Below are positions 3,637-13,743 of a stretch of 50,378 bases of DNA, in pieces. Source of the DNA: Rhodothermales bacterium (lineage in GTDB: Bacteria > Bacteroidota > Rhodothermia > Rhodothermales > Bin80). Made by a program: the position numbers and the translations under genes. How positions within the stretch are numbered: the stretch's first letter is position 1; every line of letters starts with the position of its first letter. The notes beneath the pieces are model-generated. The model searched no databases and was not told where the DNA came from. It saw only the letters and a list, made by a program, of their open reading frames with translations. The DNA lies in assembly GCA_022821385.1 (NCBI GenBank), contig JAJEDR010000072.1, forward strand, positions 1-50,378, given 5' to 3'.

Positions 3637-5448
3637 TCAGACGAGATCTCCTCTAATGTTTGGAGAACGATCTTTCTGAATTGAATCCAGAAACGAATCC
3701 AGCGTCATACCACCCAGGTTTTCGCCGGAGCGTGCACGTACTGTGATTGTCTTCCCGTCTGCTTCACGAGCTCCAAGAACAACCATATAGGGCACCTTCA
3801 AAAGCTCCGCCTCCCGGATCTTATAACCGATCTTTTCACTGCGCACATCCAGTGTTGCGCGTAACCCCTCTGACTGAAGCCTGGCATGCACTTCGCCGGC
3901 GTAATCCGCGAATCGCTCAGAAATTGACATTACCCGCACCTGCTCCGGTGCCAGCCATAGAGGAAATACCCCCGCACAATGCTCAATCAAGACTCCAATA
4001 AACCGCTCCAGTGAACCAAACGGTGCTCGATGAATCATAGCTGGGCGATGACGTTCGTCATCTGCCCCTGTATACCAGAGGTCGAAACGCTCGGGTAAGT
4101 TATAATCCAGTTGGACCGTGCCTAATTGCCATTGCCGTCCGAGCGCATCCCGAACCATAAAATCAATCTTCGGGCCATAAAAGGCCGCCTCCCCGAGCTC
4201 CTCATGGACTTCCAAATTCATCTCACGCATAACCTTTCGCATCGAATCCTCGGCAGCTTCCCAGACCTCCACTGTACCTGTGTACTTCTCATGATTATGG
4301 GGATCGCGTAGGGATAACTGCGCACTGTAATCCTGGAAATCCAATGCACCCAACACCTGAAGTGCAAGATCTACGCAATCTCGGACCTCCTCTTCAACTT
4401 GGTCGTGCCGGCAAAAAATATGCGCGTCATCTACAGTAAAACCACGTACACGTGTCAAGCCACCTAGCTCGCCCGTTTGCTCATATCGGTAAACCTGTCC
4501 AAATTCCGCCAGCTTTACAGGCAATTCCCGATAGCTGCGCCGCTTATGCGCATAAACTTGAATATGATGTGGACAGTTCATTGGTCTGAGCAGGTAGCCA
4601 TCCACGCCATGTGAGCTCATCGGCGGAAACTGACTCTCACTGTAATACGGGTAGTGCCCACTGGTTCGGTAAAGATCAAGGTGCCCTATATGCGGAGTGA
4701 TCACTGGTTCATAGCCACGTCGAAGTTGTTCCTCGCGTAAAAAACTCACTAACGTTTCCCGAAGTGTGGTCCCCGCCGGAAGCCATAGTGGCAGTCCCGG
4801 CCCGACCTTCTCGCTGAACATGAATAACTCCAACTTCTTTCCCAGGACCCGATGGTCTCTGGCACGAGCCTGCTCCAGACGGTCCAGGTACTCCTGCAGC
4901 TGCGTGCGATTCTTCCATGCCGTACCATAGATGCGAATTAATTGTGCTCTCTCTGCATCTCCCCGCCAATAAGCCCCCGCAATGCTTAACAGCTTGATCC
5001 CGTTGGGTTTAAGGTACCCGGTGTGGGGAACATGCGGCCCCCTGCAAAGATCAACAAAGGGCCCCTGCTGATAGACTGTCAAAGGTGTAACTGCGTCCTG
5101 AGCCGCCAATTCTTCAATCAGTTCAATCTTGTAAGGATTGTCTGCAAAAAGTACACGGGCTTCGTCCAGTGCTACTTCACGGATCTCAAAACGATGCCGT
5201 TCTTTAATAATCGCCCGCATTCGATCCTCAATCCAAGACAGATCCTCTTCATGCGGAGGAGACGACATCTCAAAGTCATAGTAGAAACGATCCTCAATTG
5301 GCGGTCCAATGGTAGGCTTTGCTTCCGGAAACCGCTCCAGTACGGCCTGCGCCATAACATGCGCAGCCGAATGACGTATTTTGTAGAGTTTGGGATCGTA
5401 ATCCTCCGGTATGTACGTTTCGGCACGCCGCAAAAGCTCCTCAACCAT
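3637..5448 (-). CDS. thrS: Threonine--tRNA ligase, apparently without a TGS domain
   Basis: Threonyl-tRNA synthetase charges tRNA-Thr and edits mischarged Ser-tRNA-Thr. The editing domain starts almost at once: HSAAHVMAQAV holds the HxxxH pair and PFVDLCRGPH the later cysteine. The class II core follows: GPGLPLWLPAGTTLRETL (motif 1), YRYEQTGELGGLTRVRGF (motif 2) and HRAPFGSLERFIGVLIEH (motif 3). The zinc ligands are visible as MNCPHH, DDAHIF and IHRAPFGS. The C-terminus is the anticodon-binding domain. I start it at the ATG at 5448 (603 residues). The frame is open to 5859, but that extension is antisense to the neighbouring gene and reads like non-coding sequence. With this start the usual N-terminal TGS domain of about 60 residues is missing. 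The gene is divergent from the fusion gene at 5515, with 66 bp between starts. Confidence 0.96.
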   Translation of the reverse strand: MVEELLRRAETYIPEDYDPKLYKIRHSAAHVMAQAVLERFPEAKPTIGPPIEDRFYYDFEMSSPPHEEDLSWIEDRMRAIIKERHRFEIREVALDEARVLFADNPYKIELIEELAAQDAVTPLTVYQQGPFVDLCRGPHVPHTGYLKPNGIKLLSIAGAYWRGDAERAQLIRIYGTAWKNRTQLQEYLDRLEQARARDHRVLGKKLELFMFSEKVGPGLPLWLPAGTTLRETLVSFLREEQLRRGYEPVITPHIGHLDLYRTSGHYPYYSESQFPPMSSHGVDGYLLRPMNCPHHIQVYAHKRRSYRELPVKLAEFGQVYRYEQTGELGGLTRVRGFTVDDAHIFCRHDQVEEEVRDCVDLALQVLGALDFQDYSAQLSLRDPHNHEKYTGTVEVWEAAEDSMRKVMREMNLEVHEELGEAAFYGPKIDFMVRDALGRQWQLGTVQLDYNLPERFDLWYTGADDERHRPAMIHRAPFGSLERFIGVLIEHCAGVFPLWLAPEQVRVMSISERFADYAGEVHARLQSEGLRATLDVRSEKIGYKIREAELLKVPYMVVLGAREADGKTITVRARSGENLGGMTLDSFLDSIQKDRSPNIRGDLV

Positions 5449-5514
5449 GCTTAAACAAGAATTATTGTTGGGCAACCGAGGAACACGCGTATATGTGCAA
5501 GGTGTTCCATTAGC

Positions 5515-7191
5515 ATGACTGCCAGCGATATTCAGGAACTGTTGGCGAGCATGGGAAACCCCGTGAAAGCGGCGCATGCTCAGCGCTTCTTCAAAACCGG
5601 TCCCGGAGAATACGGTGAGGGAGATATCTTTCGTGGAATTCGTGTGCCCGAGCTGCGAAGGATCGCGCAGAACTGGAAGAAGGTTGCGCTTGATGAAATG
5701 CTGGTGTTGTTGCGGTCTGATTATCACGAGGACCGATTCGTAGCCCTGTGCCTTCTCGTTCACGCGTTCAAGCGCGGTAATCAGTATAGAGTATACAACG
5801 CATACCTTGAGCACACCTGCTTTGTTAACAACTGGGATCTGGTTGACACAAGTGCACACAAGATCCTGGGGCCCTATCTCTTCAAGCGCCCGCGAACACC
5901 CTTATATACCCTCGCCCGTAGTGACAACCTGTGGGAGCGCCGTATCGCCATCGTCTCTACGTACTATTTCATTAAGCGGGATCAGTACAACGACACACTT
6001 GCACTTTCAGATGTTTTGGCACACGATCAGGAAGATTTGATCCACAAGGCCTGCGGCTGGATGCTTCGTGAGGTTGGCAAACGCGATGAGTCTGTACTTG
6101 CAGCATTCCTGGATGACCCGACCGTAGTCTTACCACGCACTGCCCTACGCTACGCAATTGAGCGGTTTGACCAACCTGTGAGGAGAGCCTATCTGGCCAA
6201 ACGGGCTGATAACACCACTCAATACCACGTCACTGCGTGGCGGGCTTATCGGTACGTAATGGACGCGGCAAATCGACTGAAAGGTGACGTGGTTGAAACC
6301 AAAGCTTTGCGGTCGAAAGAACTCGGAAAAGACTTCGGAGCAACAGTTTTCCTCAAACTCGAAAATGAACAGCATACCGGATCCTTCAAATACCGGGGAG
6401 CCCTGAACAAACTCATGTCGCTGAATGAACCAATTCACCCCCCGGTTGCGGCGTCTACAGGTAATCACGGCCTTGCGGTATCTCGTGTTCTGAAGGATTT
6501 TGGTATAAAGGGAACGATCTATCTGCCCGTCACGACCGAAGAGCATAAGAGCGAAGCGCTCCGCGAGGGAGTTGCGGACCTCGTTTTCGGTGGAGATGAC
6601 GGGATCGACGCAGAAAGAGAGGCTCGACGCGTGGCAGAGCAGGAAGGGCGCGTGTTTATCTCCCCGTATAACGATTGGCAGATCATAGCAGGTCAGGGGA
6701 CTGTTGGGGTTGAACTATTGCGTCAGGCAGGATCCCTGGATTATGTCTTCGTTGCTGTGGGAGGCGGCGGCCTGATAAGCGGATTGGCACTTGTACTGAA
6801 AACCCATCTTCCAGCTATCAAGGTTATCGGGTGCTCACCTGCAAGATCCAACGTAATGCAGGCGTCTGTTGAGGCCGGAAGCATCGTTGAGCAGCCTGCA
6901 CAGCCTACTCTCTCCGATGGCACAGCCGGCCAAATTGAACCTGATTCCATTACCCTCCCGCTGTGCACGGATTTGGTGGACGAATGGGTGACGGCTACGG
7001 AAGAGGAGATTGCCGACGCCATGCGTCGGGTCCACCACGAGCACGGTATAAAAATTGAGGGTGCCGCAGGAGTCGCAGTTGCCTGTTTTCTGGGATACAA
7101 GGAGAATTTGACCAAAAAGCGGCTTGCAGTGATCATCTGCGGTGGCAATATATCCGACGAGAAATTCCAGACTGTACTTGATCAGACCTGA
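5515..7191 (+). CDS. AlkD-type DNA alkylation repair domain fused to threonine/serine dehydratase
   Basis: One 558-residue frame encodes two enzymes that are normally separate. Residues 1-230 are an AlkD-like HEAT-repeat DNA glycosylase: GIRVPELRRIA, NNWDLVDTSAHKILG (W107, D111), LWERRIAIVSTYYFIK (R142/R143) and KACGWMLREVGKRD (W182) match the positions lining the AlkD lesion pocket. Residues 240-558 are a fold-type II PLP enzyme of the threonine dehydratase/serine racemase group. They contain TGSFKYRGALNK with the Schiff-base lysine K292, ASTGNHGLAVS, and the phosphate loop VGGGGLISGL (415-424). There is no C-terminal regulatory ACT domain, as in the catabolic or short type. The joint, about residues 228-245, has no stop. 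An in-frame ATG (codon 249, at 6259) could let the second enzyme be made separately. Start ATG 5515; no clear ribosome site. A sequencing or assembly join cannot be excluded. Confidence 0.85.
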   Translation: MTASDIQELLASMGNPVKAAHAQRFFKTGPGEYGEGDIFRGIRVPELRRIAQNWKKVALDEMLVLLRSDYHEDRFVALCLLVHAFKRGNQYRVYNAYLEHTCFVNNWDLVDTSAHKILGPYLFKRPRTPLYTLARSDNLWERRIAIVSTYYFIKRDQYNDTLALSDVLAHDQEDLIHKACGWMLREVGKRDESVLAAFLDDPTVVLPRTALRYAIERFDQPVRRAYLAKRADNTTQYHVTAWRAYRYVMDAANRLKGDVVETKALRSKELGKDFGATVFLKLENEQHTGSFKYRGALNKLMSLNEPIHPPVAASTGNHGLAVSRVLKDFGIKGTIYLPVTTEEHKSEALREGVADLVFGGDDGIDAEREARRVAEQEGRVFISPYNDWQIIAGQGTVGVELLRQAGSLDYVFVAVGGGGLISGLALVLKTHLPAIKVIGCSPARSNVMQASVEAGSIVEQPAQPTLSDGTAGQIEPDSITLPLCTDLVDEWVTATEEEIADAMRRVHHEHGIKIEGAAGVAVACFLGYKENLTKKRLAVIICGGNISDEKFQTVLDQT

Positions 7192-7415: not shown

Positions 7416-7946
7416 ATGCGAACCAGACTACACCTCATTCTCCTAATCGCTCTCATCACGGGTATTGTTCATGGTCAGGAACTGAGTCCTGAACAACGCC
7501 TGGATGAGCTAGGCATTCAGTTGCCCGATCCACCTGCCCCCGTGGCCAACTATGTGCGGGCAGTGCAAACCGGCAATCTTGTCTTTCTTGCTGGACATGG
7601 CCCCTACTTGCCTAATGGCCAATACATCACGGGTAAACTGGGGCGGGACCTTACACTTGTAGAAGGGTACGCAGCTGCCAGGCAAACAGGGATCGCTCTC
7701 CTAGCCTCACTGAAGCAGGAGATCGGTGACTTGGGTCGGGTTACACGTATTGTCATGGTCAATGGCATGGTCAATGCAACACCGGACTACACCGAGCACC
7801 CGAACGTCATCAACGGCTGTTCAGATTTGCTCGTAGAAGTGTTCGGCCCCGAAATCGGGAAGCATGCCCGGGCAGCCGTCGGGATGAATTCCCTCCCGAT
7901 TGGGATCGCCGTGGAAATAGAAATGATCGTAGAGGTGCGGGAGTAG
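7416..7946 (+). CDS. Exported RidA/YjgF family protein
   Basis: A 176-residue RidA-family protein. Classic RidA hydrolyses reactive enamine/imine intermediates, such as 2-aminoacrylate released by threonine/serine dehydratases. Here the fold is preceded by a signal peptide (LHLILLIALITGIVHG, likely cleavage before QELSPEQ, about residue 21). The protein should therefore act outside the cytoplasm, where those intermediates are not known to form. Family features include FLAGHGPYLPNG, VEGYAAARQTGIALLASLK, VNATPDYTEHPNVINGCSD and GKHARAAVGMNSLPIG, with the arginine that binds the substrate carboxylate in RidA proteins. It resembles the longer RidA-like subgroup of about 150 residues rather than the 128-residue archetype. 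It lies 224 bp behind the dehydratase fusion on the same strand. It converges with the subtilisin gene, with six bases between the stops. Confidence 0.85.
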   Translation: MRTRLHLILLIALITGIVHGQELSPEQRLDELGIQLPDPPAPVANYVRAVQTGNLVFLAGHGPYLPNGQYITGKLGRDLTLVEGYAAARQTGIALLASLKQEIGDLGRVTRIVMVNGMVNATPDYTEHPNVINGCSDLLVEVFGPEIGKHARAAVGMNSLPIGIAVEIEMIVEVRE

Positions 7947-7952
7947 ATCCGA

Positions 7953-9446
7953 CTATAGCGCAGCGGTGCGCATAGTTCGTTCAAGGGCAGCAGCGGCATT
8001 GATGACGCGGCCTACCGCCGGGGTATCAGGAACCTCTGTACCTGTTTCATGCAAAATCAAGTACGCCTCATCCACCGTAAGCTCTGGGTTCACGGATCTC
8101 ATAACCCCCAGTAATCCCGTCACAACAGGCGTGGCCATAGACGTGCCGCTCATGGGTTTGTATGTTCCTTCAGGGAAGGAAGACAGTAAATCAACCCCCG
8201 GCGCTGCAATCGGACGGGAAAGGCTGCCAACCGTATTGGAAAAACCGGCCTTAGCAAGATCCCTGTCAACCGCCGCGACAGCAATCACACCAGCAATATT
8301 GGATGGGAAATGATCAATCGCATCCTCGTCGGCATTGCCTGCAGAAGCGGCCACGATAACCCCACGGTTGATTGCGTATTCCACAGCGTTCGTCAATACA
8401 CGAGGCGGTACATCAGACTTACTACCTAACGACATGGAAATCACATCCGCCTGGGCTCTTGTAGCATCAATAACTGCCTGCGCTATCTGCTCCAGTGAGC
8501 CTCGACCTGCATCTCCGAGGGCCTGGAATCCCAACAACTCGACAAACCGTCCCTCCCAGTTTAATGATGCAATACCGAGGCCATTGTTGGTTGTCGCACC
8601 GGCAATTCCGGCGCAGTGCGTTCCATGTCCATGTTCATCCCCTGTAACGCCCACAGCATAGACTGCCTGCAAGTCTTCATGATCAGACTCAACCCCGGTA
8701 TCCAATATGGCAACGCGAGCCTTGCGTACAGGGCTCGTATCCTCAAGCACTGCATGCGCTTCATGCGCCTGAATAGCATCCAGTGCCCACTGCTGGGCTA
8801 CGTGTGGATCATTTTCCAGAACTGTACTCCCCGACTGGTACTCAATCCCGTCAGAAGGAGGAAGAGACAAACTGATCTCCACATTGAGTTCTACATGATC
8901 AACATTCTCTGTGTCCGCTCTGAGAGCGGAAATCATGGCTTCCGTACGGCGTGAAGACACACTAACCAGATAAACCTGAGCCAGATCTACATCCTCGGCA
9001 AGCGTAAGCTCAGGAAACGCACGCTCCCAGGATTCTGCAAAACGGTTCAAGATATCCTCTACTTCAAGGATTGAATCATCGGGTCCTAACTCAACCAGTA
9101 CAGATTGCTCCGTTCGATGCCAAACTGATTGCCAAAGATGTTTGGCTCCAAACAGCAACCCTGACAATACAAGAGAGGCTACTCCCAGGATAACAAAAGG
9201 ACGTGCGTTCTCTGCCAATTTTCTGAACCCCATATACGCTGCAGCCAGAAGCAGGCTGATACCGCCATCCCTGAGCAATTCAATGATCACCTGAATGAAT
9301 CCGCCTCCTGACCAGAGGCGCGCAATCACGGCACCAATACCAAGGGAAAAACCTGCCAGGATTACCCAGGAGCCGTTGCCCCTGTGCCCGATACCGATAG
9401 CTACGAGCAGCAATGCGGTTGCCGTGATGACAGTTATGACATCCAT
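7953..9446 (-). CDS. Membrane-anchored S8 family serine peptidase (subtilisin-like)
   Basis: A 497-residue subtilisin-family protease with an unusual multi-span membrane N-terminus. Residues 1-105 contain three to four hydrophobic segments: [45 protein letters not shown] and [18 protein letters not shown]. Residues 115-235 form an acidic linker with a propeptide-like fold. The catalytic domain covers about 243-490, with Asp249 ([15 protein letters not shown]), His274 ([12 protein letters not shown]), oxyanion Asn371 ([11 protein letters not shown]) and Ser436 ([16 protein letters not shown]). All triad residues are present, so it should be active, probably on the outer face of the inner membrane, though topology is uncertain. 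There is no sorting domain. It starts at the ATG at 9446, divergent from glpK. Its substrate cannot be inferred from the neighbours. Confidence 0.9.
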
Positions 9447-9542
9447 ATCAAAATTGAGAGGTCCCCCTCGGTTGACCTACGATTAGATGTCCACCTGGTT
9501 GCATTGAGCATTATATTTGTGTCAGTTCACACTCTTCAAAGC

Positions 9543-11024
9543 ATGTCATACATTCTTGCCCTTGATCAGGGAACTACGAGTTCGCGCGCCATTATTTTCG
9601 ACGCAGAGGGTTCTATTGTAGGGATGGCACAGCAGGAATTCCCTCAGATTTATCCTCAGCCCGGATGGGTCGAGCACGATCCAATCGCTATCTGGAATTC
9701 CCAACTGTCGGTAGCTCGCGAGGTCTTGCAGACCTGCGGACTGCTCTGTCAGGATATAAATGCAATCGGAATCACCAACCAGCGCGAAACTACTATTGCA
9801 TGGGATCGTGATACCGGTCATCCCATTCACAACGCTATAGTCTGGCAGGATCGCCGCACGGCCGGCCAATGCGACCAATTACGCGCTGATGGAAAGGCAG
9901 ATTTATTTCAGTCACGCACCGGACTAGTACTGGATCCTTACTTCTCCGGCACAAAAATCAAGTGGATCCTGGACCATGTTCCGGGCGCACGGGATCTGGC
10001 GGCAGCAGACCGCCTGTGCATCGGTACGGTGGATACATGGCTGATCTGGAAGCTGACGAACGGCCGACAATACTGCACGGATGTCTCGAACGCAAGCCGT
10101 ACGCTGCTCTATAACATGCACTCTCATGGTTGGGACGACGAGCTTTGCACTCTGCTCAATGTGCCGCCGGAAATCCTGCCGGATGTCGTTCCATCAAGTG
10201 GCGTGATTGGAGAAACAGCCCTCCTGGGTACCCCGGTCCCTATCGCGGGAGTTGCCGGTGATCAACAGGCGGCCCTGTTCGGACAGGTATGCACAAAGCC
10301 TGGTATGGTAAAAAATACCTATGGTACGGGCTGCTTTCTACTGATGAACACAGGGACAAATGCTATCCCGTCCACAAACAGACTCCTCACCACAATCGCG
10401 TGGAAGCTAAACAATGAAACACAGTACGCGCTTGAGGGCAGTGTCTTTGTAGGCGGTGCAGTCGTTCAGTGGCTGCGAGACCAACTTGGACTTATTGCCT
10501 CATCGTCCGAAGTGGAGGCACTCGCATCACAAGTGCCGGATAATGGGGGAGTAACTATCGTTCCGGCCTTTACGGGGCTGGGAGCACCACACTGGGATCC
10601 CTATGCCAGGGGCACAATTGTAGGACTGACACGCGGCAGCAACGCAGCGCATATTGCCCGGGCGGCACTCGAAAGTATCGCATACCAGAGCGCTGATGTA
10701 ATCAGAGCCATGGAAGCAGACGCCGGTGTGGAGCTCAAGGAAGTACGCGTAGATGGTGGCGCAACGGCAAATAACCTGCTCATGCAGTTTCAGGCAGATA
10801 TTCTGGGGGTTCCTGTGGTCCGACCTGTCGTGCGCGAAACGACTGCACTGGGAGCTGCTTACCTCGCAGGAATCGCAGTGGAACAGTGGACCGGTTTTGA
10901 TGACCTAAGCCAGTTGTGGCAAAAAGAGCGAATCTTTGAACCACAAAAATCACGTTCAGACGCATCTGCACTGATGGATTCCTGGGCTGCTGCTGTTGAA
11001 CGCTCCAAAGGCTGGGATCGCTAA
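9543..11024 (+). CDS. glpK: Glycerol kinase
   Basis: Glycerol kinase (493 residues, usual length about 500) phosphorylates glycerol to sn-glycerol 3-phosphate in the cytoplasm. This is the committed step for glycerol use and for lipid backbone supply. FGGY-kinase features are clear: the N-terminal phosphate loop [16 protein letters not shown], the glycerol-binding stretches [10 protein letters not shown] and [41 protein letters not shown], and the C-terminal ATP-binding [17 protein letters not shown] start at the ATG at 9543, where homology begins ([10 protein letters not shown]); the open frame extends upstream to 9384 but is not protein-like there. glpF follows after 30 bp, so the two form a glycerol uptake operon. 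No glycerol-3-phosphate dehydrogenase or glpR is present in the window. Confidence 0.97.
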
Positions 11025-11952: not shown

Positions 11953-13743
11953 TTATCGAACAAGCGTGACTGCACGCGTGATTTGCTGATTATCCTTGCG
12001 GAGAACGAGCCAGTAAAGTCCGCTCGCCAGCGCATACTCACTTGCCGTCATGGTCAATGTATGCTGACCAGGCTGCTTGTACTCGCCCTCTATCAGCGTA
12101 ATGCTACTACGCCCGATCACGTCAACCAATTGTAGAGTGACCGTTCCTGGCTCCTCTAGCGTGTACTCAATCTGTGCCTGCTGCCTGAATACAGTAGGAT
12201 ATATCACCATACTTAAGCCCGGCCGGGCCAACTCCGAATCCAGACCTGTTTGCACAGGAGATATTACTATGTTACTCGGACCACTCTCAATAGAATTGGA
12301 GTTCACAGACTGCACGAAATACCAATGCCTTCCGGCATCCGCGCTTGGACTATCTGTTACCGTGGTTCTTCCGGAAATAGCAATCAAATTGCGCGCATCT
12401 TGGGCAGCTGCGGTTGCATCCGGCTCTAGTTCGCTTCCTACGCGATATACAGCATAGCGTGCAGGAGCTTCGCCAGGAGGATCCCACGTCAACCGGACCG
12501 TTCCGCCATCCTGCGAAGCTACCAGGTTAAGGGGAGCTGCCGGTGCAATCTGATCCTTCCAATCCATGGATGGCGTGAGCGCAGGATACTGATACAGTCC
12601 ATCCCGCATGATCCGCGCAAAATTTCCCCCGCGACCAGGAAGTATATGCAGTGCTCGAAAGAATATACTCCCCTGAATCCCAAAGTAATCCCGGTTAAAG
12701 GCGACTTGGTTGGGGATTTCCATCGGACTGATCGGCGAAGATGCTTCGGTTCGATAAAGTGCGTGGCCCGGGTATAAATGCCGGTCATCTATTTGGTCCG
12801 ACCACCAGGGTGCCAGTTTTTCATAGGCCTGGGCTCCTCCAAAGGGCCAATACAACTGTGGAGCGAGGTAATCAATGGTTTTTTGTCTGATCCAGGCCGT
12901 GGCATCCGCGTAGATTGTGCTGTATGCATCGAGCCCGCGAATCCCTGCGGGCACGTTATTCTTCCAGATACCAAACGGACTTATCCCAAACTTGATCGTC
13001 GAATCAAGTGAGCGCAAACTGTCGGCAACCTGTGCAATCAGAAGGTTTACATTATCCCGACGCCAGTCAAACAGACTCATGAACCCCCGGCTTTCAGTCT
13101 GGAATGTCTGACTGTCCTGCGTAGTTATTTGATTGGGGGGATACGGATAGAAGTAATCGTCAAAATGGACCCCGTCAATATTGTAGCGACGCGCCACATC
13201 CATGATGATGGATACAACATAATTGCGCACTTCCTCTTTTCCTGGATCCAGCAGCGTCAGCGGTCCGGCTTGGTAGGTCCACTCTGGATGTGTTACCGTA
13301 ACATGGTTATCTGCCGGTGTAAATGATGAACCGTTGTCGGCCCGATAGGGATTAAACCATGCGTGAAGTTCCATGCCTCGACTATGAGACTCTTCAATGA
13401 CAAAGGCTAGGGGGTCATAACCGGGATCTCTTCCCTGCCTGCCCGTTAGGTAGTGGGACCATGGCTCATGGTTAGATTCGTACATGGCGTCCCCGATCGA
13501 ACGTACCTGAAAAATTACCGCATTAATCCCTGCATCCTGGAGATGGTCCAGAAGCTGCCGCAAAGCCCCCTTCTGCTGTGACTCGCCTGCTCCCTGCCGT
13601 GGCCAATCCAACCCGTAAACCGTTGCGATCCAGGCAGCCCGGAATTCATGCTTGGGAGGCGCAGCGATTTGGGCCTGTGTGCCCGGCAACATCACAACGA
13701 GCATCGCTGCCAGGAGACATAACTGAATCCAGGATCTCATCAT
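11953..13743 (-). CDS. T9SS-exported family 10-like glycosyl hydrolase (GHL10/DUF187)
   Basis: A 596-residue secreted protein. After a signal peptide (LCLLAAMLVVMLPGTQAQ) comes a TIM-barrel domain of the GHL10/DUF187 type: EFRAAWIATVYGLDWPRQG at its start, then INAVIFQVRSIGDAMYES, LHAWFNPYR, IDGVHFDDYFYPYP, and a late YLAPQLYWPFGG. This family resembles glycoside hydrolases; some members cleave peptidoglycan or other glycans, but the substrate here is unknown. A fibronectin-III-like domain follows (about 420-510: APLNLVASQDGGTVRLTWDPP). The last 80 residues are a type A T9SS sorting domain, with QIEYTLEEPGTVTLQLVD, a GLYWLVLRKDNQQ segment and a final VTLVR. It should be carried across the outer membrane by the type IX system. 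Start chosen at the ATG pair at 13743/13740, which gives a clean signal peptide. Confidence 0.87.
   Translation of the reverse strand: MMRSWIQLCLLAAMLVVMLPGTQAQIAAPPKHEFRAAWIATVYGLDWPRQGAGESQQKGALRQLLDHLQDAGINAVIFQVRSIGDAMYESNHEPWSHYLTGRQGRDPGYDPLAFVIEESHSRGMELHAWFNPYRADNGSSFTPADNHVTVTHPEWTYQAGPLTLLDPGKEEVRNYVVSIIMDVARRYNIDGVHFDDYFYPYPPNQITTQDSQTFQTESRGFMSLFDWRRDNVNLLIAQVADSLRSLDSTIKFGISPFGIWKNNVPAGIRGLDAYSTIYADATAWIRQKTIDYLAPQLYWPFGGAQAYEKLAPWWSDQIDDRHLYPGHALYRTEASSPISPMEIPNQVAFNRDYFGIQGSIFFRALHILPGRGGNFARIMRDGLYQYPALTPSMDWKDQIAPAAPLNLVASQDGGTVRLTWDPPGEAPARYAVYRVGSELEPDATAAAQDARNLIAISGRTTVTDSPSADAGRHWYFVQSVNSNSIESGPSNIVISPVQTGLDSELARPGLSMVIYPTVFRQQAQIEYTLEEPGTVTLQLVDVIGRSSITLIEGEYKQPGQHTLTMTASEYALASGLYWLVLRKDNQQITRAVTLVR

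Follow-up and report, generated by a model that had tools for sequence, protein, structure and literature searches.

The window analyzed here, a stretch of 50,378 nucleotides, is an entire contig (G000:C24) from a 97.6% complete genome of a Rhodothermales bacterium. On its forward strand, positions 5515 to 7191 hold one open frame that runs from ATG to TGA without an internal stop and encodes 558 amino acids, in which an AlkD-like DNA glycosylase is fused to a PLP dehydratase. The AlkD-like domain spans residues 1 to 227 approximately (5515 to 6195), a linker follows at about residues 228 to 241 (6196 to 6237), and the serine/threonine dehydratase-like PLP domain takes up residues 242 to 558 (6238 to 7188). 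The initial annotation had described a complete AlkD-like domain and a near-complete dehydratase domain in a single frame, and both proved to be complete Pfam domains within the 558-residue frame. Since the two strong matches share one frame, the fusion is not a product of chance, and homologues of the whole protein, described below, were also found.

In the first domain, Pfam DNA_alkylation (PF08713) matched residues 6 to 218 (6.4e-59; 199.6 bits against a cut-off of 21). The AlkD part modeled alone (pLDDT 96.7) superimposed on Bacillus cereus AlkD (5clb_A) with a Z score of 21.9 and an rmsd of 2.3 over 212 residues; unrelated solenoids scored well below this, with a Z of about 11. W107, R142/R143, and W182 align with W109, Arg148, and W187 of B. 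cereus AlkD, residues whose roles have been described (PMC4081403). Across 34 sequences, including a divergent paralogue, W107, D111, and R143 are invariant and W182 is conserved in at least 90%. On the alignment and general knowledge of AlkD, we take D111 to correspond to the catalytic D113. The fused protein and B. cereus AlkD (PDB 3bvs, 5clb, and 3jx7) therefore have in common a HEAT-like fold and the positions of W109, Arg148, W187, and the catalytic aspartate. However, the AlkD part is only about 22 to 24% identical to that characterized enzyme, it belongs to a different, widely spread subfamily that is, as far as we found, uncharacterized, and its C terminus is fused to a dehydratase. 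The same glycosylase family includes the YtkR2/AlkD self-resistance glycosylases of antibiotic producers (PMC8934636), but the neighbors here are genes for threonyl-tRNA synthetase (ThrRS), RidA, a protease, GlpK, and an aquaporin-like channel, and no sign of a biosynthetic cluster was seen around the fused gene within positions 1 to 12 kb of the window. A second AlkD-like gene in the same genome (L003, G000:C22:67517-68194) is divergent, at 35% identity, and the stretch around its second tryptophan is altered, reading GSWIRE for GWMLRE.

The second domain matched Pfam PALP (PF00291) over residues 260 to 543 (1.9e-66; 224.9 bits against a cut-off of 35) and has fold type II; its model superimposed on TdcB (2gn0) with a Z score of 40.8 and an rmsd of 2.2 over 322 residues. 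Serine racemase and other related activities have the same fold as serine/threonine dehydratases. The best NCBIfam match was PRK06815 (NF005292), threonine/serine dehydratase, at 361.1 bits. This lies 10 bits below the equivalog cut-off of 371, and we accordingly call the fused dehydratase PRK06815-like rather than a member; unfused sister dehydratases narrowly pass the cut-off, at 374.3 and 374.1 bits. With PRK06815 and TdcB the domain has in common the whole PALP domain, the PLP lysine in GSFKxRGA, and the GGGGL loop, and it differs from them in being covalently joined to a DNA glycosylase. The PLP-binding lysine is K292, in GSFKYRGA (codon at 6388 to 6390), and both it and the GGGGL loop (residues 416 to 420) are invariant in the fused proteins, K292 in 12 of 12. 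Unfused relatives begin at about residue 240 and the model helix starts at 241, so essentially no dehydratase sequence was lost, in agreement with the earlier remark that this part begins near its usual N terminus. The earlier placements of W107, D111, R142, R143, W182, and K292 were likewise correct, and all six are invariant in the 12 fused sequences wherever these are covered. Another dehydratase in the same genome (G000:C10) passes the threo-3-hydroxy-L-aspartate ammonia-lyase model; given this gene and the second AlkD-like gene, neither function need rely solely on the fusion.

The initial annotation proposed a search for homologues with the same domain order, and matches spanning both domains were indeed found in related genomes. 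All 10 examined genomes of the genus carry the fusion, as do G010 and G012, which belong to two further genera of the same family. These 12 genomes from three genera are 56 to 91% identical to the window, and across the three genera the fusion is retained at 56 to 62% identity. Among the 11 fused genomes other than our own, two homologues are cut by contig ends: one genus member is cut 5' by a contig edge, and G010 is cut 3', the remainder matching a separate contig.

In three genomes of two other genera, a stop codon separates adjacent genes: TAA after LKGTA in G011, which is a single-contig genome, TAA after PCEP in G015, and TGA after LKGEV in G013. In G014, which represents a sixth genus, about 6 kb separates the AlkD and dehydratase genes. 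Relatives that keep separate genes with an intervening stop at this locus, which had been named earlier as evidence against a genuine fusion, do exist, but they fall outside the fused group and likely represent the ancestral state. A second, independent fusion in G015, to which a listed frame of 603 amino acids had pointed, was rejected; its AlkD ends in TAA, and a further stop precedes the dehydratase. Wider spans at L079, L044, and L056 were single-domain genes with a spurious extension.

The ThrRS gene lies divergently upstream in both fused and unfused genomes, and genes for RidA, an S8 protease, GlpK, and MIP follow downstream in many genomes, including several unfused ones. Outside the family, no AlkD-dehydratase adjacency appeared among the matches listed from 114 order, 244 class, and 394 phylum genomes, in searches at thresholds of 1e-50 to 1e-60, at which distant pairs could be missed. 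Wider loci on genome contigs from many phyla carried only one partner each and never both, and no plasmid or phage record had a single place covering 80% of the query. A scan for promoters and terminators around the fused gene returned nothing beyond chance. An open-access literature search for such a fusion found no paper, which is no proof of absence; what we describe appears to be a stable and apparently new domain architecture joining known families.

One of the fused loci carries a repeat. On L121 (G012:C138), about 1.05 kb of AlkD tail plus dehydratase is present twice, at 8628 to 9680 and 12043 to 13100, 3.4 kb apart, and the copies were reported to be identical over 300 nucleotides. 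The C terminus of the first copy is different, and the second dehydratase copy keeps only the AlkD tail. This could be either a recent duplication with an insertion or an assembly fault.

In trees of ThrRS, AlkD, and PALP, the fused forms lie on one side of a branch (support of 92/93, 97/93, and 94/92, respectively), and the unfused family members fall outside the fused group in all three. The simplest history consistent with these trees would be one ancestral fusion, an in-frame event in the common ancestor of three Rhodothermales genera followed by vertical descent. The co-directional neighbors, an alkD-like gene followed by a serine/threonine dehydratase gene, would have lost the AlkD stop and a short intergenic stretch, and the linker would derive from the AlkD end plus the former intergenic stretch. 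The alternative, fission in the unfused lineages, is less simple. Fusions of bacterial operon neighbors generally arise in this way, with the stop and intergenic gap lost and the frame kept, but the partners here are without an evident common pathway. The unfused, ancestor-like arrangement is still visible in sister genera.

The dN/dS ratio differs among the three parts of the gene. In a close group of four genomes, dN/dS was 0.035 to 0.070 for AlkD, 0.107 to 0.166 for PALP, and 0.31 to 1.33 for the linker, which also has high column entropy. Higher values, such as 0.58 for AlkD between G005 and G003, come from very few changes in a near-identical pair (dS of 0.033). Judged by these ratios, the AlkD and dehydratase domains are both under purifying selection. 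The linkers of different genomes vary in length by whole codons, and none of the 12 fused genomes has a stop or frameshift there. In each genome, four to seven single changes in the linker would create a stop, equal to 1.3 to 2.3 expected stops per neutral substitution per site; the fourfold-site tree was saturated and its topology and length were unreliable, and only the absence of stops was used. A linker that stays open despite these possible stop changes speaks for selection having maintained translation across the joint.

An AlphaFold2 model of the whole fusion had a mean pLDDT of 91.1 and a pTM of 0.91; confidence was low nowhere but in the linker (pLDDT below 50 at residues 233 to 236). 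The pTM by itself suggests that the two domains may hold a fixed arrangement. Next to the rapidly changing linker is a motif, W242-x-A-Y245-x-x-(V/I)-M249 (6238 to 6264), in the first dehydratase helix (residues 241 to 255); its W242, A244, Y245, and M249 do not vary among the 12 fused proteins. Four unfused family members have no W or M at the W242 and M249 positions in N termini aligned by eye, read by offset from the RLxG motif in a region that aligns poorly. The spacing of W242, Y245, and M249 (i, i+3, i+7) puts them on one face of the helix, an arrangement compatible with docking against the AlkD part; M249 taken alone would also be compatible with an internal start. We treat the motif as a lead, three genera being few.

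Three explanations of the joint had been offered in the initial annotation. An assembly join falls away, a stop lost between neighbors stands as the origin, and a bifunctional protein stands as the putative retained state. We consider it quite likely that an inherited fusion of neighbors has been maintained as a single chain in which both active sites work, a bifunctional reading that draws on the conserved catalytic residues and purifying selection. The cell would make one protein of about 62 kDa. From its family, the AlkD part would remove N3- or N7-alkylated purines from DNA, and the PALP part would deaminate serine or threonine, passing through an enamine/imine to yield a 2-oxo acid. These are probably two independent activities on one chain. 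We know of no chemistry that joins alkylation repair to amino acid deamination; the same had been said of the pairing before, our analysis found no linking chemistry, and a common biochemical purpose of the two enzymes is unsupported. The two activities would be chemically independent, and the fusion might be kept for equal expression or because the domains now dock and depend on one another to fold or assemble. Retention for joint expression or docking is probable, and the locus is well suited to asking whether gene fusions are maintained for their function or simply because they are hard to undo.

Functional coupling is the strongest competitor, although we think it unlikely. Here the dehydratase oligomer would scaffold the glycosylase, the metabolic state would regulate repair, or the dehydratase would moonlight. 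Maintenance of the fusion over three genera at 56 to 62% identity speaks for coupling, as do the pTM of the whole model and the invariant W242, Y245, and M249 along one helix next to a rapidly evolving linker. Against it stand the lack of any neighborhood link between the two families outside one family, among the matches listed, the lack of a known chemical connection, and the second dehydratase copy in G012, which has an AlkD tail only. In its most specific form, the enzyme would be bifunctional and docked, with the dehydratase controlling or supporting the glycosylase by oligomerization, positioning, or a response to amino acids or PLP; this seems similarly unlikely. If true, it would be the first physical link of amino acid deamination with alkylation repair. 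The motif associated with the fusion offers a direct target for probing the docking.

An internal start, from which the dehydratase would also be made at the ATG at 6259 to 6261 (M249) or upstream of it, with the fused form incidental, strikes us as improbable. That ATG, noted in the initial annotation as a possible source of the second enzyme alone, does exist; every fused gene has ATG for M249, a position at which the unfused family members differ. However, a linker free of constraint should gather stops or frameshifts and is open in every fused genome, initiation at M249 would cost the first helix half its length, and unfused dehydratases start 7 to 9 residues before the M249 position, so that a separate dehydratase product is unsupported despite the invariance of M249.

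Decay, with one domain inactive and carried along as a bystander, is very improbable: the dehydratase dN/dS is two to three times the AlkD value, but both are well below 0.2 in informative pairs, and the catalytic residues are invariant in the fused proteins. The earlier judgment that both domains look functional, which argues against decay, is upheld by these residues and by the apparent purifying selection. An assembly or sequencing artifact has next to no probability, for although every fused genome seen is fragmented (about 50 to 220 contigs), the same joint, with lineage-specific linkers, recurs in 12 separately assembled genomes of three genera, which rules out an assembly join.

We also considered the downstream neighbor as a partner for the dehydratase. 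RidA-type proteins clear the enamine products of such dehydratases (PMC4433059). The RidA/YjgF-like protein of the window (7416 to 7946, forward strand) has a signal-peptide-like N terminus, read by eye, in both fused and unfused relatives, and that of G013 has a lipobox-like LAGC. The gene adjoins the locus in unfused genomes too, but in G002 and G006 no such gene was found next to the fused one. Because its N terminus looks exported and its presence is inconstant, we did not adopt RidA as a cytosolic partner clearing the dehydratase enamine. To our knowledge, exported Rid proteins seem unusual.

In the ThrRS frame (3637 to 5859, reverse strand), on the other side of the fused gene, Pfam recognizes the SAD, core, and anticodon domains and no TGS domain. 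Homology to relatives outside the genus starts near residues 133 to 146, so that the true start probably lies around residue 138; the beginning of the frame is antisense to the AlkD domain. In G005 (L129, G005:C71, 5814 to 10030), about 3.9 kb lies between the ThrRS gene and the fused gene, and G003 (L036) is similar. The G005 stretch carries genes for an aldehyde dehydrogenase and a PLP decarboxylase and is flanked by partial duplicates (79 to 85%) of the region of the ThrRS and AlkD starts.
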